Shown piece by piece: positions 4,906-18,234 of a stretch of DNA of 22,427 bases; position 1 is the first letter of the stretch, and every line of letters starts with the position of its first letter. The notes under the pieces were generated by a model, which was given only the letters and a program-made list of their open reading frames with translations, ran no database searches and was not told the DNA's origin. Location of the stretch: the IMG/VR virus record IMGVR_UViG_3300009702_000349, positions 1-22,427 of that record. One strand, 5' to 3'. Source of the stretch: a virus. The translations under genes were made by a program, and so were the position numbers.

Positions 4906-6951
4906 ATGGATTCAACTGAAACAGTAAAAGAAAAAGAACATAAGTCTTTCGGGATGAAAGAAATTATCAATCCGCTCAATAAAGCAACTGAGCGTATGTT
5001 TTCGCCTGCGCGTTTACGCCCAAATGACTTCTTAGAAGTTTCAATGACTAAAGATGGGAATATCCTAACTTTAGCATATGCGAAAAGTGCATATAATGAA
5101 GGTGAAAAAGTGTCGGCGTCTAATGCAGGGTGCCGATCATTTATGAAAATGCCAGAGCGTCGGTATTCTGGTTGGGGTAAATGTATACTCAAACCTACAG
5201 ATATCAACGCTCTTGCTATCCGTTGTATCTGGCCGACTGATCGAGTTATCTATTTAGATGATGAATCGAAAGAACTTGTAAACATGCTTGTTTTGCGTTT
5301 TGCTGAACAATCTATATCAGCAAAGAAAAAAGCACTATTCAAACTAAAAAAGGTTATGCCAAGTTCTGTAGATTCTTTTGTAGATCACCCGAAAAATCCA
5401 TTGATGGATTATCAACTCGCTTGTCATAATACATCATATTTTGTAGATGGTGTCGCTGAATTTATGGACCCCGGATGCGGAAAATCTGCTATTGTAGTAT
5501 CTCGGGTTAGCACGGAAAGCCGGGTAATACATAAAAAAGAAAAGCGTGCATACAGAAGTATTATTGTTTGTCCGCAAAGTGTTCGTGTAAACTGGCGCCG
5601 AGAGTTTGAAAAGTTTTCAACTACAAAGGGCCGAATCGTAGTTTTACATGGTACTGCATTAGATCGGATGAAACAACTCGCAGAAGTTTTAGACGTACAA
5701 GATGATGATAAATGGTTAGTTGTGATTTGTTCATATGAAACATTGTCTAGGTCGTGGGAAGTTATAAGATTATTCGATTGGGATTTGGCAGTAGCCGATG
5801 AATCCCATATGTTCAAACAGCCGACTACACAACGTTATAAAACAATGCAAGCGTTGAGGGATAGATCAAAATGTCGTGTTATTCTTACAGGCACAGAAGT
5901 TGGAAACATTATCGGAGATTTATATACTCAACTTGAGTTTTTGGGCAAAGGATATTCCGGCTTTTCGTCTTATAAAGCATTCTGTGCTTTTTATCATGTT
6001 TATTCTGATAACGAAGGTAGAGATGGGCATAGGCGAGTTTCTGGTTTTCAGAATATCCCGATTCTTCAAGAGCGCATTTCTAGGTTAGCATTTCAAATGA
6101 CTAAAAAAGAAGCGCTACCAAATCTACCTAAACAAATGTTCGATATTCAGGAAGTTATGATGACTCCGCAACAAATGGAAGTTTATACAAATCTACAAGT
6201 AAAACTCGCAGCACAAATCGAATCACAACTTGATAACATTGATTCGATGAATTCATCTAATTATTCTATTACTGTATCAAACATTCTAACTAAACTATTG
6301 CGGTTATCTCAAATTTCATCAGGATTCACGAAAACTGATGATTTGGTAGATGATAATGGAGATATCATCAGTAAGGGTAAAATTGTTTACTTCGATAGAA
6401 TCCCTAAGATTGACAAAGTTATTGAAATCATCAAAGAAAAAACTAAATATGAAAAAGTTATCATTTGGTGCTGTTGGGTTCCAGCGATTGAAGAAATTTC
6501 TCGACGCTTGAATAAAGCCAATATAAAACATGTAACATATTATGGTAAAACGAAACAAGAAGATAGGGAGACTGCACAAATAAGTTTCAATAATGATCCG
6601 ACAGTAAAAGTATTCTTAGGAAATCAATCTGCTGGTGGTTCAGGCATGAATCTACCGGGTTATGTTCCTGAATGGGAAGGGACAGATAAGGACACTAAAT
6701 GTAATGCTAGCCATGTGATTTACTATTGTAATGACTGGTCGCATATCAAGCGAGAGCAAAGCCAAAATCGGAATCACGGAAAATCTAGGAATCGTGTTCC
6801 GATTCAATATACCGATATCATCTGTCCCGGTTCTATTGATGAAGAAATCCTAACTCGACTAACTGGTAAGAAGATTACCGCATTGGATGTAAAGGATATT
6901 AGAGGAACATTGAAACGTATTATTGGGTTTGATGTGAAAGGGCAGGAATAA
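4906..6951 (+). CDS. SNF2-family DEAD-like helicase / ATPase
   Basis: The protein has 681 residues. Two RecA-like lobes are visible: motif I DPGCGKS at residues 188-194, motif II DESH at 298-301, motif III LTGT at 327-330, motif V SAGGSGMNL at about 575-583, and motif VI starting at Q618 (QSQNRNHG). The order and the NDW preceding motif VI fit superfamily 2 of the SNF2/RapA type, common in phage replication and recombination modules. Such enzymes translocate on DNA and remodel protein-DNA complexes or DNA junctions. The roughly 150-residue N-terminal part is not recognisable. No nuclease domain is present. The ribosome binding site is weak. The gene leads a run of small genes with short spacers, so it may be the first large gene of an early operon. 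Confidence 0.85.
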   Translation: MDSTETVKEKEHKSFGMKEIINPLNKATERMFSPARLRPNDFLEVSMTKDGNILTLAYAKSAYNEGEKVSASNAGCRSFMKMPERRYSGWGKCILKPTDINALAIRCIWPTDRVIYLDDESKELVNMLVLRFAEQSISAKKKALFKLKKVMPSSVDSFVDHPKNPLMDYQLACHNTSYFVDGVAEFMDPGCGKSAIVVSRVSTESRVIHKKEKRAYRSIIVCPQSVRVNWRREFEKFSTTKGRIVVLHGTALDRMKQLAEVLDVQDDDKWLVVICSYETLSRSWEVIRLFDWDLAVADESHMFKQPTTQRYKTMQALRDRSKCRVILTGTEVGNIIGDLYTQLEFLGKGYSGFSSYKAFCAFYHVYSDNEGRDGHRRVSGFQNIPILQERISRLAFQMTKKEALPNLPKQMFDIQEVMMTPQQMEVYTNLQVKLAAQIESQLDNIDSMNSSNYSITVSNILTKLLRLSQISSGFTKTDDLVDDNGDIISKGKIVYFDRIPKIDKVIEIIKEKTKYEKVIIWCCWVPAIEEISRRLNKANIKHVTYYGKTKQEDRETAQISFNNDPTVKVFLGNQSAGGSGMNLPGYVPEWEGTDKDTKCNASHVIYYCNDWSHIKREQSQNRNHGKSRNRVPIQYTDIICPGSIDEEILTRLTGKKITALDVKDIRGTLKRIIGFDVKGQE

Positions 6952-8359: not shown

Positions 8360-8974
8360 ATGGACGAAAATACTAGACAATTACATGGATCAATGATAGA
8401 GATTCGCAATCTTAGGCTTTCAATCCATCCTATTATTGCTCGCATAAATTCTCATAATAAGGACAACAAAACCAATGTAAACATGAACGATATTGCTGAT
8501 CTTATATGGGTCTTGAAAAGATATTATAGTCTTATTGATGATTTCCGTAAGGACTTAGGCGCAACATTAGACTTAGCAAATAAAATCTTAGGTGTAAGTT
8601 GGTTATTATTACCAGATGAACTATCATCTATTGATGGTGATATATCTCAAATTACACCTAGAGTATCTACGCCTTTGAGAGGTGTTTCATTTACTAAGGA
8701 TTATGAAAGATATGAAAAAGTATTGAAAGCATTTGGTGTTCCTGAAGATATTATAAAAACAGGTGTATTGAATATTCATTGGGTTCATGCTAAAGAATGG
8801 TTGTCGAATCAACTTCACGAAGGAAAGCATATACCAGAAGGAATTAGATTGGATGAAACTTATGTAGAATATAAATCAACAGTTCGCACGAAAAAAGAAG
8901 TTGATGAATCGGATGAAGAAAATATCTCACACAACTCATATAAGGAATATATGAATGACCGAAAAACGAATTGA
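8360..8974 (+). CDS. Hypothetical protein (204 aa)
   Basis: Start supported by AGAAGGAAA directly upstream. The N-terminal half is helical (residues 1-90, with IADLIWVLKRYYSLIDDF), and the middle has an FGVPEDIIKTGVLNIHWVHA segment that looks like a conserved globular part. The C terminus is charged and low in complexity (KKEVDESDEEN). It overlaps the next gene by 20 bp, which implies coupled translation with the candidate single-stranded-DNA-binding protein and perhaps a shared role in DNA replication or recombination. I do not recognise the family. Confidence 0.6.
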   Translation: MDENTRQLHGSMIEIRNLRLSIHPIIARINSHNKDNKTNVNMNDIADLIWVLKRYYSLIDDFRKDLGATLDLANKILGVSWLLLPDELSSIDGDISQITPRVSTPLRGVSFTKDYERYEKVLKAFGVPEDIIKTGVLNIHWVHAKEWLSNQLHEGKHIPEGIRLDETYVEYKSTVRTKKEVDESDEENISHNSYKEYMNDRKTN

Positions 8975-9782
8975 ATCGAATATAACGAAAATCAATCCTA
9001 ATCTTCCTGCATACATGCAAGAAGATGGTTTGATGGGGACAGAAGAACTTTCTAAGATTGTTCGTCCACCTTTATTGAGAATTATTCAAAAATCATCGAG
9101 TGATGATCTATTGGAGAAATTCGATAAAGGTGATCTAATCATACGTCCAGCAGATGCACTAGTTGCATCATACAATAACGGCAACCCTGATAAATTCCTG
9201 TTTACACCTATCATCTATTGGCGGGAGTTTGTTACATGGGCACCACTAACTTTGAAAGGGCAAGTTCCTGCAGTTCTTGGAACTACACGGGATGAAAATA
9301 GCGCTCTCGCTCGTAAGGCTATGGATGCTACATTACGAGAAGAAGAAATACAATATGAAGGTATGACATTTACCGCTAATCATGTTGCACACTTGAACTT
9401 TCTTTTTATTATTCAAAATAATGATGCTATGGGTTTTGAACCTGCCTTATTCTCATTCTGCCGTGGTGAATATGTAACTGGCACAAAATTCGCAAGTATG
9501 ATAAAACAGTGCCATGCGCCGATTTTCAGCCGAATCTATGAAGGGCAAGTATCACCTACACCACGAAGTAATCAAAAGGGTTCGTGGTATGGATTGGATA
9601 TCAATAATCCTACCGATGATATCAGTCCGTGGGTTGATAGTGATTTGTATGCCCAATATAAGGATTTGTATGAGAAGTTTTCCATTTCACTGAAAAGTGA
9701 TAATATCAAAACTGACTATGAATCTAGCGAATCTAGCGAATCTGATGAATCTGATGGGTATAATGATTCGGATGAATTCTAA
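8955..9782 (+). CDS. Phage protein with acidic tail, possible single-stranded-DNA-binding protein
   Basis: The protein has 275 residues. A central globular region has alternating beta-type segments (KFLFTPIIYWREFVTWAPLT, then LNFLFIIQNN, EPALFSFCRG, GSWYGLDI), compatible with an OB-like fold. The last 20 or so residues are an acidic serine tail that ends in phenylalanine (SDEF). Acidic tails with a terminal aromatic residue are characteristic of phage and bacterial single-stranded-DNA-binding proteins such as T7 gp2.5. The position directly before the primase-helicase fits. This is an inference from tail and context, and I cannot show homology to a known family. AAGGA lies 8 nt before the start. 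Confidence 0.5.
   Translation: MTEKRIESNITKINPNLPAYMQEDGLMGTEELSKIVRPPLLRIIQKSSSDDLLEKFDKGDLIIRPADALVASYNNGNPDKFLFTPIIYWREFVTWAPLTLKGQVPAVLGTTRDENSALARKAMDATLREEEIQYEGMTFTANHVAHLNFLFIIQNNDAMGFEPALFSFCRGEYVTGTKFASMIKQCHAPIFSRIYEGQVSPTPRSNQKGSWYGLDINNPTDDISPWVDSDLYAQYKDLYEKFSISLKSDNIKTDYESSESSESDESDGYNDSDEF
9720..9755 (+). repeat. 9-bp tandem repeats encoding an acidic ES(S/D) tail
   Basis: Two copies of GAATCTAGC are followed by two copies of GAATCTGAT, encoding ESSESSESDESD. The period is a multiple of three, so copy-number change would lengthen or shorten the acidic tail without breaking the frame. Confidence 0.8.
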
Positions 9783-9815: not shown

Positions 9816-9845
9816 TACCACTAAGAATGAAAGTTCTTAGTGGTA
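9816..9845 (+). promoter_or_regulatory. 12-bp hairpin covering the initiation region of the primase-helicase gene
   Basis: Bases 9816-9827 pair perfectly with 9834-9845 around a TGAAAG loop, ending three bases before the ATG at 9849. The right arm occupies the position where a ribosome binding site should be, and no clear site is seen otherwise. The T content after the stem (ATTTATG) is too low for a good terminator. Such a stem could act as a translational operator for autogenous control, or attenuate read-through from the upstream gene. Just upstream, 9776-9799 holds three 8-bp ATTCTAAA repeats that span the previous stop. Confidence 0.65.
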
Positions 9846-9848
9846 TTT

Positions 9849-12764
9849 ATGAATCAGGATACACTTCAAAACATAAATACTTATGTTGAGTTGGAGCGCA
9901 TAGGTTGGAAATATGAACCTTGTAGCGATGAGGAAATAAGATGTAAATGTCCTGCGCATAATGATAAACACCCATCTTGTTTTATCAATGTAAAGAAGAA
10001 TCTTTTTCAATGTAAAGTTCCTTCTTGCGGCGCAAAAGGTGATCTAGTAACATTTTTAGCATTAGCGCTAAAAACTAACAGGCCAACAATATACGCAGAT
10101 TTAGCGAAACGTTATGATGTATCTGAAATAAAAAGCATCAGTTCCGATATCATTGAGAAATATCACACTACTCTAAAACATGGTAAAAAAGGGCGAACAT
10201 TAGTAGATGCCATATATAAAAAAGGTATAATAGATGAAGATATTGTACGGTATAGAATAGGATATGATCCAAACCGCAATCGTATAACTATACCCATTAG
10301 AAACAATTATGGGTCTTTTGTAAACATTAGAAGGTATCTACCTAATGCACCTAATAAAAACAAAATGTCTAATGTGCGGGGGCACGGTAAGATACGTTTA
10401 TTCCCCATAGATCAAACAGATTATAAAAGAATAATGGTTTGTGGTGGTGAGATAAAAGCAATAGTAGCGGCTCACTTATTGAATCCGCATGATATTGGTG
10501 CTGTTTGTACAACAGGTGGTGAAGGAAATTGGGAAAACGAATTCTCCGAGTTTTTCAGAGATAAAGTAGTTTATATTTGTTTTGATATTGATAATGAAGG
10601 TCGCAAAGGTGCGATGATGGTCGCTACTAGATTGTTACTAGTAGCAAAAAGCGTCAGGATTATAGAACTCCCATTAGATAAAGAAAAGTATCCGCATGGT
10701 GATATAAACGATTGGGTAGGGGCAGAAAAAGCGAATGAAAAAGATTTATTGAAACTAATAGAAAACACAGAAGTATGGAAACCGACAGATTTTGAAAAAG
10801 ACCCAACAAAAGAAGATCAATCTAAGCCTGTTGAAACTAAATTAGATGATTCTACAAAGCCTGATTTAGTAGGCAAACCTATAACAATAACAGGTGTTGT
10901 CAGTGCTATTGATACTTCACCATATTTAGTGCCAAAGAAAGTAAAATGTATATGTGAGAAGGATCAAAAATACTGTTTCATGTGCCCTGTTTTCGCTAAG
11001 TTCAAACAAAATGATACTTTCGTTGAACTTACAATCCAACCTAAATCTGCGCACATATTAGAATACATAAATGTAGGTAAAAAAGAAATTCGAGAAACAA
11101 CACGAAAATGTCTGCGCATACCTATTTGTAAGACAGTGGAGTTTCATCCGATTTCTCATTATAGCATTGAGGATATTAGATTGAATCCTTGTCTTGACAT
11201 AGATTCGTTGGAATCTAATAAAACTATGATTCCTGCGTATTCTATATCGCATGGATTAGAGTTGAATACACCTTATAATTTTACTGGGTATACTTATCCA
11301 CATCCTAAGAGCCAACAGGCTATTTTCCTCGCTAAAAAGAATAAAGCATCACAAGATTCACTAGATACATTCAATCCTAGTGATGAAGATTTATCTAAGT
11401 TACTGATTTTTCAACCTAAAAATTGGAATTATATCGGCTTGGATAAAAAGTTGAATGAAATATATGATGACTTAGAGGATAATGTAACCCGTATTTTTAT
11501 GCGAAAAAAATTGCATTTGGTTTGTGATTTGGTTTATCACAGCGTACTATTCTTTTCGATAGAAGATAATAGATTAGAAAAAGGTTGGGTAGAAGCATTA
11601 GTTTTAGGTGATAGTGCGCAGGGTAAAACAGAAACTTCTAAAAGATTGATGGAATACTATAAACTCGGTGTTCGAGTTGAATGTAAAAATGCTAGCACGG
11701 CTGGCCTTCTCGGAGGTGTACAATCATTAGGTGGAAATAGTAGATGGTTTGTTACATGGGGTATCATACCGACACATGATCGGCGTTTAGTGATTTTAGA
11801 AGAATTGAAAGGCGCTAGTGTTGAAGTTATATCAAAACTTACAGATATGAGAAGTTCAGGTGTAGCAGAAATACCTAAGATTGAAAAACGAAAAACATTT
11901 GCGCGTACTCGATTATTAGCAATAAGTAATCCTAGAAAAGATATGCCAATATCAACATATAGTTATGGCATTTATGCGATAAAAGAGTTGATAGGATCAT
12001 TAGAAGATGTTAGACGCTTTGATATGGGATTGATAGTTTCTGCAGAAGAGATAGACCAAAAGTTTGTAAATAACTTATCCGCTAACAAATCTAAACATGA
12101 AAATATACACACAAGTGATTTGTGTAGAAATCTTATATTATGGGCATGGACTAGAAAACCTTATGAGATATTGATTGATGAGTCTATCAAAAAAGAAATA
12201 ACATTTTCTGCCAATAAGTTATGCGAAGAATATACGGATATTATACCACTTGTGGATCGCGGGTCGATGCGATTGAAAATCGCTAGGCTCAGCATAGCAT
12301 TAGCGGCTCGCACATTTTCTTGTGATGAAGAAGATTACCATATTTTAGTTGTAAGAAAATGTCATGTTGAATACATAACTAGATTATTAGAAAAAATATA
12401 TTCGAGTAAGATATTCGGATATAAAGACATGACGACTTCTTATAAACTGACTTTGAAACTAAAAGACCCTGATATTATAAAAAAACATATATTAGGCACT
12501 CCGTATCCTTCGGATTTTATAGACAATCTTCTTTTTACTAACAATATAGATGTTCGAGATATTCAAGACTGGTGTGGATGGGAAAGAAGTGTATCATCAG
12601 AACTTATATCATTACTTGTTAGAAAACGAGCCATTACTAGAGAGGGTATAATATACCATAAAAATCCTGCATTTATCGAGTTCCTTAGAGATTTGAAAGA
12701 TTCTGATGATTTGAAAATAGTGGATAGACCTAAATATATCAAAGAAGAGGATGAGGAAATATGA
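9849..12764 (+). CDS. Primase-helicase fusion: CHC2 zinc ribbon, TOPRIM and MCM-like AAA+ domains
   Basis: About 971 residues. The zinc ribbon uses C34, H37, C55 and C60 (C-x2-H...C-x4-C). The TOPRIM catalytic motifs are GGE at 199-201 and DID at 246-248. Next is an OB-like segment (VGKPITITGVVSAI) with a second metal motif, C367-x-C369-x6-C376-x2-C379, as in MCM N-terminal domains. The AAA+ part has Walker A GDSAQGKT at 587-594, Walker B VILEE at 648-652, sensor-1 SNP with N694, and SLEDVRRFD at 717-725, equivalent to the MCM SRFD arginine-finger motif. The last 80 residues look like a winged helix. The protein should both prime and unwind DNA at the fork. Walker B has Glu-Glu rather than Asp-Glu. 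A GTG at 9840 is an alternative start but lies in the hairpin stem. The stop overlaps thyX by four bases. Confidence 0.85.
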   Translation: MNQDTLQNINTYVELERIGWKYEPCSDEEIRCKCPAHNDKHPSCFINVKKNLFQCKVPSCGAKGDLVTFLALALKTNRPTIYADLAKRYDVSEIKSISSDIIEKYHTTLKHGKKGRTLVDAIYKKGIIDEDIVRYRIGYDPNRNRITIPIRNNYGSFVNIRRYLPNAPNKNKMSNVRGHGKIRLFPIDQTDYKRIMVCGGEIKAIVAAHLLNPHDIGAVCTTGGEGNWENEFSEFFRDKVVYICFDIDNEGRKGAMMVATRLLLVAKSVRIIELPLDKEKYPHGDINDWVGAEKANEKDLLKLIENTEVWKPTDFEKDPTKEDQSKPVETKLDDSTKPDLVGKPITITGVVSAIDTSPYLVPKKVKCICEKDQKYCFMCPVFAKFKQNDTFVELTIQPKSAHILEYINVGKKEIRETTRKCLRIPICKTVEFHPISHYSIEDIRLNPCLDIDSLESNKTMIPAYSISHGLELNTPYNFTGYTYPHPKSQQAIFLAKKNKASQDSLDTFNPSDEDLSKLLIFQPKNWNYIGLDKKLNEIYDDLEDNVTRIFMRKKLHLVCDLVYHSVLFFSIEDNRLEKGWVEALVLGDSAQGKTETSKRLMEYYKLGVRVECKNASTAGLLGGVQSLGGNSRWFVTWGIIPTHDRRLVILEELKGASVEVISKLTDMRSSGVAEIPKIEKRKTFARTRLLAISNPRKDMPISTYSYGIYAIKELIGSLEDVRRFDMGLIVSAEEIDQKFVNNLSANKSKHENIHTSDLCRNLILWAWTRKPYEILIDESIKKEITFSANKLCEEYTDIIPLVDRGSMRLKIARLSIALAARTFSCDEEDYHILVVRKCHVEYITRLLEKIYSSKIFGYKDMTTSYKLTLKLKDPDIIKKHILGTPYPSDFIDNLLFTNNIDVRDIQDWCGWERSVSSELISLLVRKRAITREGIIYHKNPAFIEFLRDLKDSDDLKIVDRPKYIKEEDEEI

Positions 12765-16183: not shown

Positions 16184-18124
16184 ATGGATAATATCATCAT
16201 ATCTAATGTGAATCAATTACCTGATATTTGTTCAGCAAACGATATCATAGTCGATTTTGAAACTACGAGTTTTGATAGTACTAGGGGTGGATTACACCCT
16301 TATAAAGGTGATAGAATCTGTGGTATTGCAGCGACAACACTAACTACTAATAAAGCATGGTATATCCCGATACGACATAAAGATATCTATTGTGATGATG
16401 AAGATATACAAAACATACCTATCGAAAATGCTATAAATTGGTTGAATGATTTACTGTCGAGTAAAGGTAAATGGATCAATCATAATGTAAAGTTTGATGC
16501 TCATTTTGCACACGTCGAAGGTATAACATCTATAAATCGAAATTTGATATGCACACTCACAGGCGCTAAATTAGTTTACAGCGACATGATGTATCAAGGT
16601 GGATATAGCCTTAGCAATCTATCGAAATTATGGTTGAAAAAAGATATTAGTTCTTACGATAAAGAAATAAAGCAGTATCTAAGGAATCTACACATTGGCA
16701 GAAAAGCCGCTAAAGATTATGCTTTAGTTCCAATAGATTTATTGGGCAGATATGCTTGTTATGATGTGAGAACAGCAAAAGATTTATATCTTTATATCGA
16801 AAATATACTGAATGATGATGAAAGAAAGATAGTTTGGGAAACTGAGAAAAAACTAACTAATGTACTATTTGATATTGAAAAAGAAGGTCTGAAAGTTGAT
16901 CTAGATGAATTGGAATGTAAAGAGTATGTAATATCAATAAAACTTAGACGATATGAAGAAGAACTAGAAAATATATTTGGTTTCAGTGTCAACCCAAAAT
17001 CTAATAAAGATTGCTATGAAGTTCTTATAAATCAATTTGATTTACCAGTTTTAGAACTTGTTGAAAAAACTAAGAATCCATCATTTGATAAGAATGCACT
17101 TAGTAAGTATTTAGAACTACCAGATGTAATAAATGACTCTAAGAAAGAAAAAGTTGTGAATATAATGCTAAAGCATCGAAAACTATCTACACTACTCTCT
17201 ATCTATATTCAACCTTATCAAATACATGCATCTAATAAAGATCAGATATTACATTCATCTTATAATCAATGTGTCCGAACGGGCAGACTTTCAAGCCGTC
17301 AACCGAATAGTCAACAGTTGAATAAGAAAGCAAAAGAACTTATACATTGTAATGAAGGCGAATCTTTTTTATCCGCCGACTATTCGCAAATCGAATTTCG
17401 CATTATGGTTCATGTTATAAAAGACATAGAAGCGATAAAAGCGTATCGTAATAATCCCGATACTGACTTTCATCAGTGGGTTGCCGATATGTGTAAAATA
17501 GACAGAAGTCCCGCAAAGAATGTAAACTTTGCAATTGGGTTCGGAGCCGGCAGGGCAAAGGTTCTTAGTATGTTATCTACTAATAAGTCTATAACTGCTG
17601 AAATGGGTGAAAAAATAGATAAAATGATTGAAAGAGATATTATCAATCCTAATGAAAGAATGAAAGTATTTGAAGATATGTGTAAAAAGCGTGCATCGTT
17701 TATATACAATCTTTATCATAACACCCTACCGGGTATTCGCACTTGCTCTAGACTTGCTTCTACTAAAACTGCTAATAGAGGTTATATTAGAACTTTGTAT
17801 AAAAGGCGTAGGCATATAAATAAAAATCATGCTCATATCGCATTCAACGCTTTGATACAAGGAACTGCAGCGGATATCCTGAAAGAGATACTAATAAAAG
17901 TTTCCCCTAGATATAATAAACGCATTAGAGAATGGGGAATACGAATCGCTGCTATTGTGCATGATGATATTCTATTCATCGGTCCGACTGAAATAATGCA
18001 CAATAAAGATGTTCAGGATTACATTCGAGATTTATTAGAATCACCAAGTTATGATTTTTTGATACCTATAAAAACTTCTATGAATATCTCAGATACAACA
18101 TGGGGTAATATGGAAAAAACATAA
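16184..18124 (+). CDS. Family A DNA polymerase with 3'-5' exonuclease domain
   Basis: The protein has 646 residues. The exonuclease domain has DFETT (D24, E26), NHNVKFDAHFA (Exo II) and YACYDVRTA (Exo III), so proofreading should be active. Polymerase motif A is DYSQIEFR starting at D399; motif B is R441-x3-K445-x3-F449-x3-F453; motif C is H593-D594-D595. E. coli Pol I has tyrosine at the position of F453 and HDE in motif C; F in place of Y is an uncommon substitution in motif B. No 5'-nuclease domain is present, as usual for phage enzymes. It should be the main replicative polymerase with the upstream primase-helicase. The start lies 4 bp after the deaminase gene with a weak ribosome binding site. 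Confidence 0.92.
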   Translation: MDNIIISNVNQLPDICSANDIIVDFETTSFDSTRGGLHPYKGDRICGIAATTLTTNKAWYIPIRHKDIYCDDEDIQNIPIENAINWLNDLLSSKGKWINHNVKFDAHFAHVEGITSINRNLICTLTGAKLVYSDMMYQGGYSLSNLSKLWLKKDISSYDKEIKQYLRNLHIGRKAAKDYALVPIDLLGRYACYDVRTAKDLYLYIENILNDDERKIVWETEKKLTNVLFDIEKEGLKVDLDELECKEYVISIKLRRYEEELENIFGFSVNPKSNKDCYEVLINQFDLPVLELVEKTKNPSFDKNALSKYLELPDVINDSKKEKVVNIMLKHRKLSTLLSIYIQPYQIHASNKDQILHSSYNQCVRTGRLSSRQPNSQQLNKKAKELIHCNEGESFLSADYSQIEFRIMVHVIKDIEAIKAYRNNPDTDFHQWVADMCKIDRSPAKNVNFAIGFGAGRAKVLSMLSTNKSITAEMGEKIDKMIERDIINPNERMKVFEDMCKKRASFIYNLYHNTLPGIRTCSRLASTKTANRGYIRTLYKRRRHINKNHAHIAFNALIQGTAADILKEILIKVSPRYNKRIREWGIRIAAIVHDDILFIGPTEIMHNKDVQDYIRDLLESPSYDFLIPIKTSMNISDTTWGNMEKT

Positions 18125-18128
18125 ATAT

Positions 18129-18165
18129 AAAAAAACCCCAATGAGCAAATCAATACTCATTGGGG
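18129..18165 (-). terminator. Intrinsic terminator for minus-strand transcription
   Basis: A perfect 10-bp stem (CCCCAATGAG at 18136-18145 with CTCATTGGGG at 18156-18165) is bordered on its left by seven A residues (18129-18135). Read on the minus strand this is a GC-headed stem followed by seven T residues, a classical intrinsic terminator. On the + strand no T run follows, so the orientation is leftward. It lies 4 bp after the polymerase stop. Confidence 0.85.
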
Positions 18166-18184: not shown

Positions 18185-18234
18185 CGACTGTTCCATTCTA
18201 ACTTGAATTCTAATAGTTTAGAATGGAACAGTCG
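18185..18234. repeat. 17-bp perfect inverted repeat
   Basis: CGACTGTTCCATTCTAA at 18185-18201 is perfectly complementary to 18218-18234, with a 16-base spacer. The loop on the minus strand contains TTAGAA, which could also pair with the TTCTAA at the top of the stem, giving an alternative fold. It lies inside the predicted minus-strand RNA. Confidence 0.8.

Follow-up and report, generated by a model that had tools for sequence, protein, structure and literature searches.

The 22.4-kb IMG/VR virus fragment analysed here, called the window in its entirety, carries on its plus strand a gene for a putative primase-helicase fusion of 971 residues, in a single unbroken open reading frame that begins with ATG at 9849, ends with the stop codon at 12762-12764 and has no internal stop; these limits agree with those given in the first-pass annotation. 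An in-frame GTG at 9840 is an alternative start that would add three residues, and the stop codon overlaps the start of thyX. The fusion lies in a replication cluster with the order SNF2-type helicase, Pam3 gp34-like protein, fusion, nucleotide enzymes and DNA polymerase A (Table 1). In Paenibacillus phage API480 an annotated SSB occupies the slot of the Pam3 gp34-like gene, so the latter could encode a partner similar to SSB. A hairpin (-20.5 kcal/mol, z -4.1) formed by a perfect 12-bp inverted repeat at 9816-9845 stops 3 nt short of the fusion ATG, with no clear Shine-Dalgarno sequence in between; when its conservation was checked in the relatives, the hairpin was not conserved. Downstream of the DNA polymerase gene, the intergenic gap contains a perfect 17-bp inverted repeat with a 16-nt loop (18185-18234), possibly a terminator or an origin element, and a second hairpin of 10 bp is found at 18136-18165.

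Table 1. Features of the fusion gene and of its neighbours, in window coordinates
Feature	Position	Strand	Evidence
SNF2-type SF2 helicase (neighbour)	4906..6951	+	Pfam SNF2-rel_dom 2.5e-27; 58 related loci
Pam3 gp34-like protein (neighbour), directly upstream of the fusion	8955..9782	+	Pfam PF23977 7e-13; 51 related loci
TOPRIM primase-MCM helicase fusion, 971 aa	9849..12764	+	ORF, translation, relatives
CHC2 DnaG zinc ribbon, residues 8-91 (ligands C34, H37, C55, C60)	9870..10121	+	Pfam Zn_ribbon_DnaG E 2e-8; Pfam match in 49/49 relatives; Z 9.3 to 1d0q
DnaG-type RNA-polymerase domain with TOPRIM fold, residues 93-312 (E201, D246, D248)	10125..10784	+	Profile against Aquifex DnaG 8.6e-19; Z 20.3 to B. 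subtilis DnaG
Linker, residues 313-326, low confidence; TOPRIM/AEP divergence point	10785..10826	+	pLDDT <50 at 314-322; AEP-MCM homology starts at ~328
MCM-type N-terminal Zn/OB domain, residues 327-500 (C369, C376, C379, C427)	10827..11348	+	Inside the Z 31 MCM match; cysteines invariant in 49
MCM AAA+ domain, residues 508-868	11370..12452	+	Profile: 32/32 PDB matches MCM; fold Z 27-31
Walker A GDSAQGKT (587-594)	11607..11630	+	G587, D588, G592, K593 invariant in 49
Helix-2 insert hairpin (~620-638)	11706..11762	+	Predicted strands 622-626, 633-637 between Walker A and Walker B; aligns with archaeal MCM
Walker B VILEE (648-652)	11790..11804	+	E651, E652 invariant in 49; D-E in other family members
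Pre-sensor-1 beta hairpin (~671-686), K677 near tip	11859..11906	+	Predicted strands 672-674, 682-684; K677 in 48/49
Sensor-1 Asn694 (SNP)	11928..11930	+	Invariant
Arginine-finger motif EDVRRFD (719-725), R723	12003..12023	+	R723 in 49/49
Probable C-terminal winged helix (874-950)	12468..12698	+	Predicted H-H-H-beta-beta-H
Family A DNA polymerase, presumed replicase (neighbour)	16184..18124	+	Pfam DNA_pol_A 1.7e-50; 14/16 related genomes

Relatives were collected with sequence patterns and tblastn, which gave 8 and then 62 IMG/VR loci; 31 more, several of which match in the primase only, were reached with an alignment built from remoter members. Conservation was assessed on 49 full-length relatives with 36-51% identity to the window protein. 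From the 49-sequence alignment the full-length fusion was modelled with AlphaFold2 (mean pLDDT 86.5), and the primase half was modelled separately by the same program (pLDDT 92.8).

Residues 1-312 comprise the CHC2 and TOPRIM primase region. In the window protein alone Pfam recognizes the DnaG zinc ribbon, with TOPRIM below the cut-off, and the CHC2 ribbon is detected in all 49 relatives. The sequence profile of the primase matches Aquifex DnaG, and in structural alignments residues 93-321 of the primase-half model give Z 20.3 with B. subtilis DnaG, Z 20.1 with Aquifex DnaG and about Z 18 with T7 gp4. The four CHC2 ligands and the three acidic TOPRIM residues are invariant in the alignment of the 49 relatives, while DNA_primase_S, the domain of archaeo-eukaryotic primases (AEP), was absent from the window protein in the Pfam search. 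The N-terminal half is thus, as judged by profile and modelled fold, a DnaG-type TOPRIM primase, in line with the CHC2 ribbon and TOPRIM primase that had been proposed for it.

The C-terminal two-thirds have a different affiliation. When residues 323-862 of the model were compared with solved structures (Foldseek, VIA-align), the best match was an SsoPfMCM entry with Z 31.0 over 464 aligned residues, and all 50 entries among the fold matches listed are MCMs, mostly with 440-470 aligned residues. The match covers the AAA+ domain together with the Zn/OB tier that precedes it, starting at residue 319-329 in most listed rows. When a profile built from the AAA+ domain alone was searched against the PDB, every chain that it found was an MCM, the best at 1.1e-6. 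Alignment with archaeal MCMs places the helix-2 insert, the pre-sensor-1 hairpin, sensor 1 and the arginine finger at corresponding positions. The AAA+ domain might instead come from another helix-2-insert group (RavA/MoxR, Mg-chelatase) or from SF3, its likeness to MCM reflecting general AAA+ features; such a reading could invoke the Pfam MCM model, whose score in the window protein alone is weak (E 0.0023, below cut-off). Since bacteria, E. coli among them, also match this model, its score is no proof alone, and MCM identity was established by the profile and fold searches. We consider the alternative exceedingly improbable: the structural match takes in the Zn/OB tier, the AAA+ profile found MCM chains exclusively, and a related protein with an AEP primase, described below, exceeds the Pfam MCM cut-off. 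SF3, DnaB/RecA, RavA and chelatase identities were rejected on the positive MCM match and not on their absence from the match lists; in the fold and profile searches none of SF3, DnaB, RavA or chelatase outranked MCM, and Pfam found no RecA-type helicase domain in the window protein. Assignment of the helicase half to the MCM family is therefore supported by sequence profile and modelled structure. The structure comparison with MCM proposed in the first-pass annotation has thus matched both tiers, and the features named there, an OB-like segment with a second four-cysteine motif and an AAA+ domain with GDSAQGKT, SNP and SLEDVRRFD, are all present as described.

Particular positions of the helicase half deserve comment. 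The arginine-finger residue R723 is conserved in the 49 relatives, in all AEP-MCMs and in 5/6 archaeal MCMs, and archaeal MCMs also have lysine at the position of K677. The position of the archaeal sensor-2 arginine is occupied in the alignment by Ser806, so sensor 2 would be shifted or absent; nearby, R808 is present in 44/49 relatives and K810 in 49/49. Beyond the AAA+ domain, the winged helix suspected earlier is probable: the AlphaFold2 model predicts a suitable order of secondary structure elements for residues 874-950, but a sequence-profile search with this C-terminal part gave no match. The Walker B motif reads VILEEL. The Glu-Glu pair, previously singled out as unusual, is real and constant in the near subgroup (49/49), but the usual Asp-Glu is found in 10/27 sequences of a wider family set. 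As a counterpoint to helicase activity, the Glu-Glu of the window subgroup might weaken Mg coordination, and one half of the protein could be inactive, the primase as a degenerate remnant or the MCM part as a slow ATPase or DNA-tethering ring. The zinc ligands likewise vary in some relatives (H37 replaced by Cys in 3/27 and C60 changed in 5/27 of the wider set), as in Microbacterium phage Krampus and Arthrobacter phage Wollypog, whose CHC2 ribbon has C-x2-C for C-x2-H and a changed fourth ligand. Nevertheless, all catalytic and zinc positions tested in both halves are invariant across the 49 relatives despite the divergence of these sequences, as expected under selection for both activities, and we regard an inactive half as highly unlikely.

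The fusion recurs in IMG/VR loci and in phage records, about 60 of each, lytic isolates included; among sequenced phages 66 records matched, 45 with a coverage of 80% or more. Its carriers include phages of Microbacterium (Krampusvirus and others), Bacillus phages BSP7 and BSTP, Weizmannia phage Youna2, Arthrobacter phage Wollypog, Paenibacillus phages API480 and SV21 and an uncultured 56-kb phage. The relatives are mostly labelled 'DNA primase', 'primase/helicase' or 'DNA primase small subunit', and the description of the lytic isolates Krampus and AnnaSerena lists 'a DNA Primase' with the MCM unmentioned (PMC7302621). One scan of a genome collection for copies on bacterial chromosomes yielded close relatives on a 49-kb and a 59-kb MAG contig, both binned as Robiginitomaculum. 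These contigs are probably phage sequences within the bin, and the binning hints at alphaproteobacterial hosts for part of the fusion group, no host being assigned to the window.

The same MCM module occurs behind an unrelated primase. Protein gp45 of Bacillus phage vB_BboS-125 matches the window protein solely from residue 328 on; its N-terminal part is an archaeo-eukaryotic primase (Pfam DNA_primase_S 4e-10, and PriCT) without CHC2 or TOPRIM, and its MCM domain is recognized by Pfam with E 3e-13. In the reverse search, gp45 matched TOPRIM-MCM phages from residues ~380-400 on (1e-42 to 1e-58). This AEP-MCM type corresponds to PHROG 18685, to which the window protein aligns from residue ~328 on (phrog_18685, E 1e-73); it was found at 21 IMG/VR loci and on a Bacillus velezensis plasmid, and has Asp-Glu in Walker B. 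The AEP and CHC2 primases were mutually exclusive in the genomes tested: DNA_primase_S was above cut-off in 4/4 AEP-type and 0/15 TOPRIM-type genomes, and CHC2 was present in 14/15 TOPRIM-type genomes, the divergent ribbon of Wollypog being missed, and absent from the one AEP-type genome tested. Each TOPRIM-type genome has a single CHC2 primase. The point at which the swapped primases are joined falls in the linker left disordered by the AlphaFold2 model. In a phylogenetic tree TOPRIM-MCM and AEP-MCM form one clade against archaeal MCMs with support 100/100, separated from them by a very long branch. As read from these alignments, the same helicase chassis carries one or the other of two unrelated primases, exchanged at the linker. 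The tree nests AEP-MCM inside TOPRIM-MCM weakly and a single TOPRIM clade is compatible with the data (AU p 0.32), so that no direction of the swap is claimed.

What the MCM part does in the infected cell can be approached through the rest of the genome. No DnaB-type helicase (DnaB_C) was found in any of the 16 genomes with the fusion that were examined, seven of which are full phage records, while control genomes were positive; for this reason the MCM is probably the replicative helicase of the phage. Adding the location of the gene in a replication cluster and the presence of DNA polymerase A in 14/16 genomes, the fusion is most likely helicase and primase of the phage in one. Krampus and Wollypog have, instead of DNA polymerase A, an annotated DnaE-like polymerase in two genes. 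In BSP7 (MH707430, 45996-47342) and Youna2 (OM293949, 50062-51780) two separate open reading frames share the DNA polymerase A domain, with ~280 and 660 bases between them, respectively; the BSP7 stretch gave no Rfam intron match. The phage could still use the host DnaB, and the MCM-like part would then be an origin-binding initiator or a loader for that helicase, the primase serving a host-type fork. No loader or initiator was identified within the window, borrowing of the host DnaB is conceivable in principle, and in SaPI and SCCmec elements the initiator helicase binds the element's own origin (PMC7581432). Such a role is improbable: the MCM motif set is conserved in full, from Walker A and B, sensor 1 and arginine finger to helix-2 insert and pre-sensor-1 hairpin, and BcMCM, whose architecture is closely analogous, has helicase activity (PMC4538821). 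An initiator role would in any case be compatible with a helicase role.

Taking into account the profile matches, the modelled folds and the gene content, it is very likely that the fusion constitutes the phage's own primosome, in which a DnaG-type primase is attached through a flexible linker to the N-tier of an MCM-family ring helicase, the only candidate replicative helicase of the phage. MCM rings encircle the leading-strand template and move 3'-5' with the N-tier first, whereas in T7 gp4 and DnaG-DnaB the ring encircles the lagging strand. In the model that we propose, the MCM part would, by analogy with BcMCM and archaeal MCM, assemble as a hexamer, hydrolyse ATP and travel 3'-5' along the leading-strand template. 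Because the MCM N-tier faces the fork, the attached primases would sit beside the excluded lagging strand, at the nose of the fork where this strand exits the ring, and prime it there, a placement comparable to that of Pol alpha-primase on the eukaryotic CMG. The primers would be extended by the family A polymerase of the phage, or by DnaE in some relatives. Somewhat beyond an even chance, in our judgement, this phage MCM replisome is agnostic to the primase, the same linker taking a TOPRIM or an AEP primase, and in its TOPRIM version the lagging strand excluded from the ring is primed ahead of a helicase that travels 3'-5' on the leading strand. To our knowledge no cell has a replisome of this composition, with a bacterial-type primase at the front of such a helicase.

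In bacteria DnaG works with DnaB, and in archaea and eukaryotes an AEP primase works with MCM; we know of no cell that joins DnaG-type primase and MCM as one replisome machine. A widespread phage protein with a DnaG-type primase on an MCM, beside a related family with AEP on the same MCM, demonstrates that primase and helicase lineages are exchangeable, and raises the question of how priming works with either strand polarity. The fusion offers a small, one-gene MCM replisome model in bacteria that is testable with laboratory phages, and dozens of sequenced phages would receive a corrected annotation. MCM helicases in phages are already known, AEP-primase fusions among them (PMC5862659; PMC4538821). 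Literature searches gave no TOPRIM-MCM fusion, the main 2016 survey of viral replication proteins lying outside those searches, and the architecture is apparently new within the literature searched.

Four groups of known proteins can be set beside the window protein. Archaeal and eukaryotic MCMs (SsoPfMCM 9nuk, SsoMCM 6mii, Mcm2-7) share with it the Zn/OB tier and AAA+ fold (Z 31) and the four structural elements aligned above, but identity in structural alignments is 13-18%, the zinc ligands are spaced differently, and the window protein has EDxRRFD in place of LxSRFD and carries a fused primase. T7 gp4 and Twinkle-type proteins also combine a TOPRIM primase and a helicase in a single polypeptide; their ring is of RecA type instead of MCM AAA+, and the opposite polarity of translocation is expected. 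The 'DNA primase' of Krampusvirus, Bacillus BSP7 and Wollypogvirus is TOPRIM-MCM along its whole length, with ~24-31% identity, but has Asp-Glu in Walker B; the actinophages have the altered zinc ribbon, and two pair with DnaE. The AEP-MCM of a Bacillus cereus prophage, BcMCM, reported to unwind DNA 3'-5' and to act as a primase/polymerase (PMC4538821), bears out the earlier remark that bacterial mobile-element MCMs carry other fusions. Judged through phrog_18685 and vB_BboS-125, it resembles the window protein in the primase being N-terminal to MCM and in the shared C-terminal two-thirds (Zn/OB, AAA+ and C-terminal domain); BcMCM, PHROG 18685 and vB_BboS-125 gp45 probably belong to the same family, as suggested by architecture, host group and length. 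The BcMCM type differs in its AEP primase (DNA_primase_S, PriCT) and Walker B Asp-Glu, where the window protein has TOPRIM and Glu-Glu.
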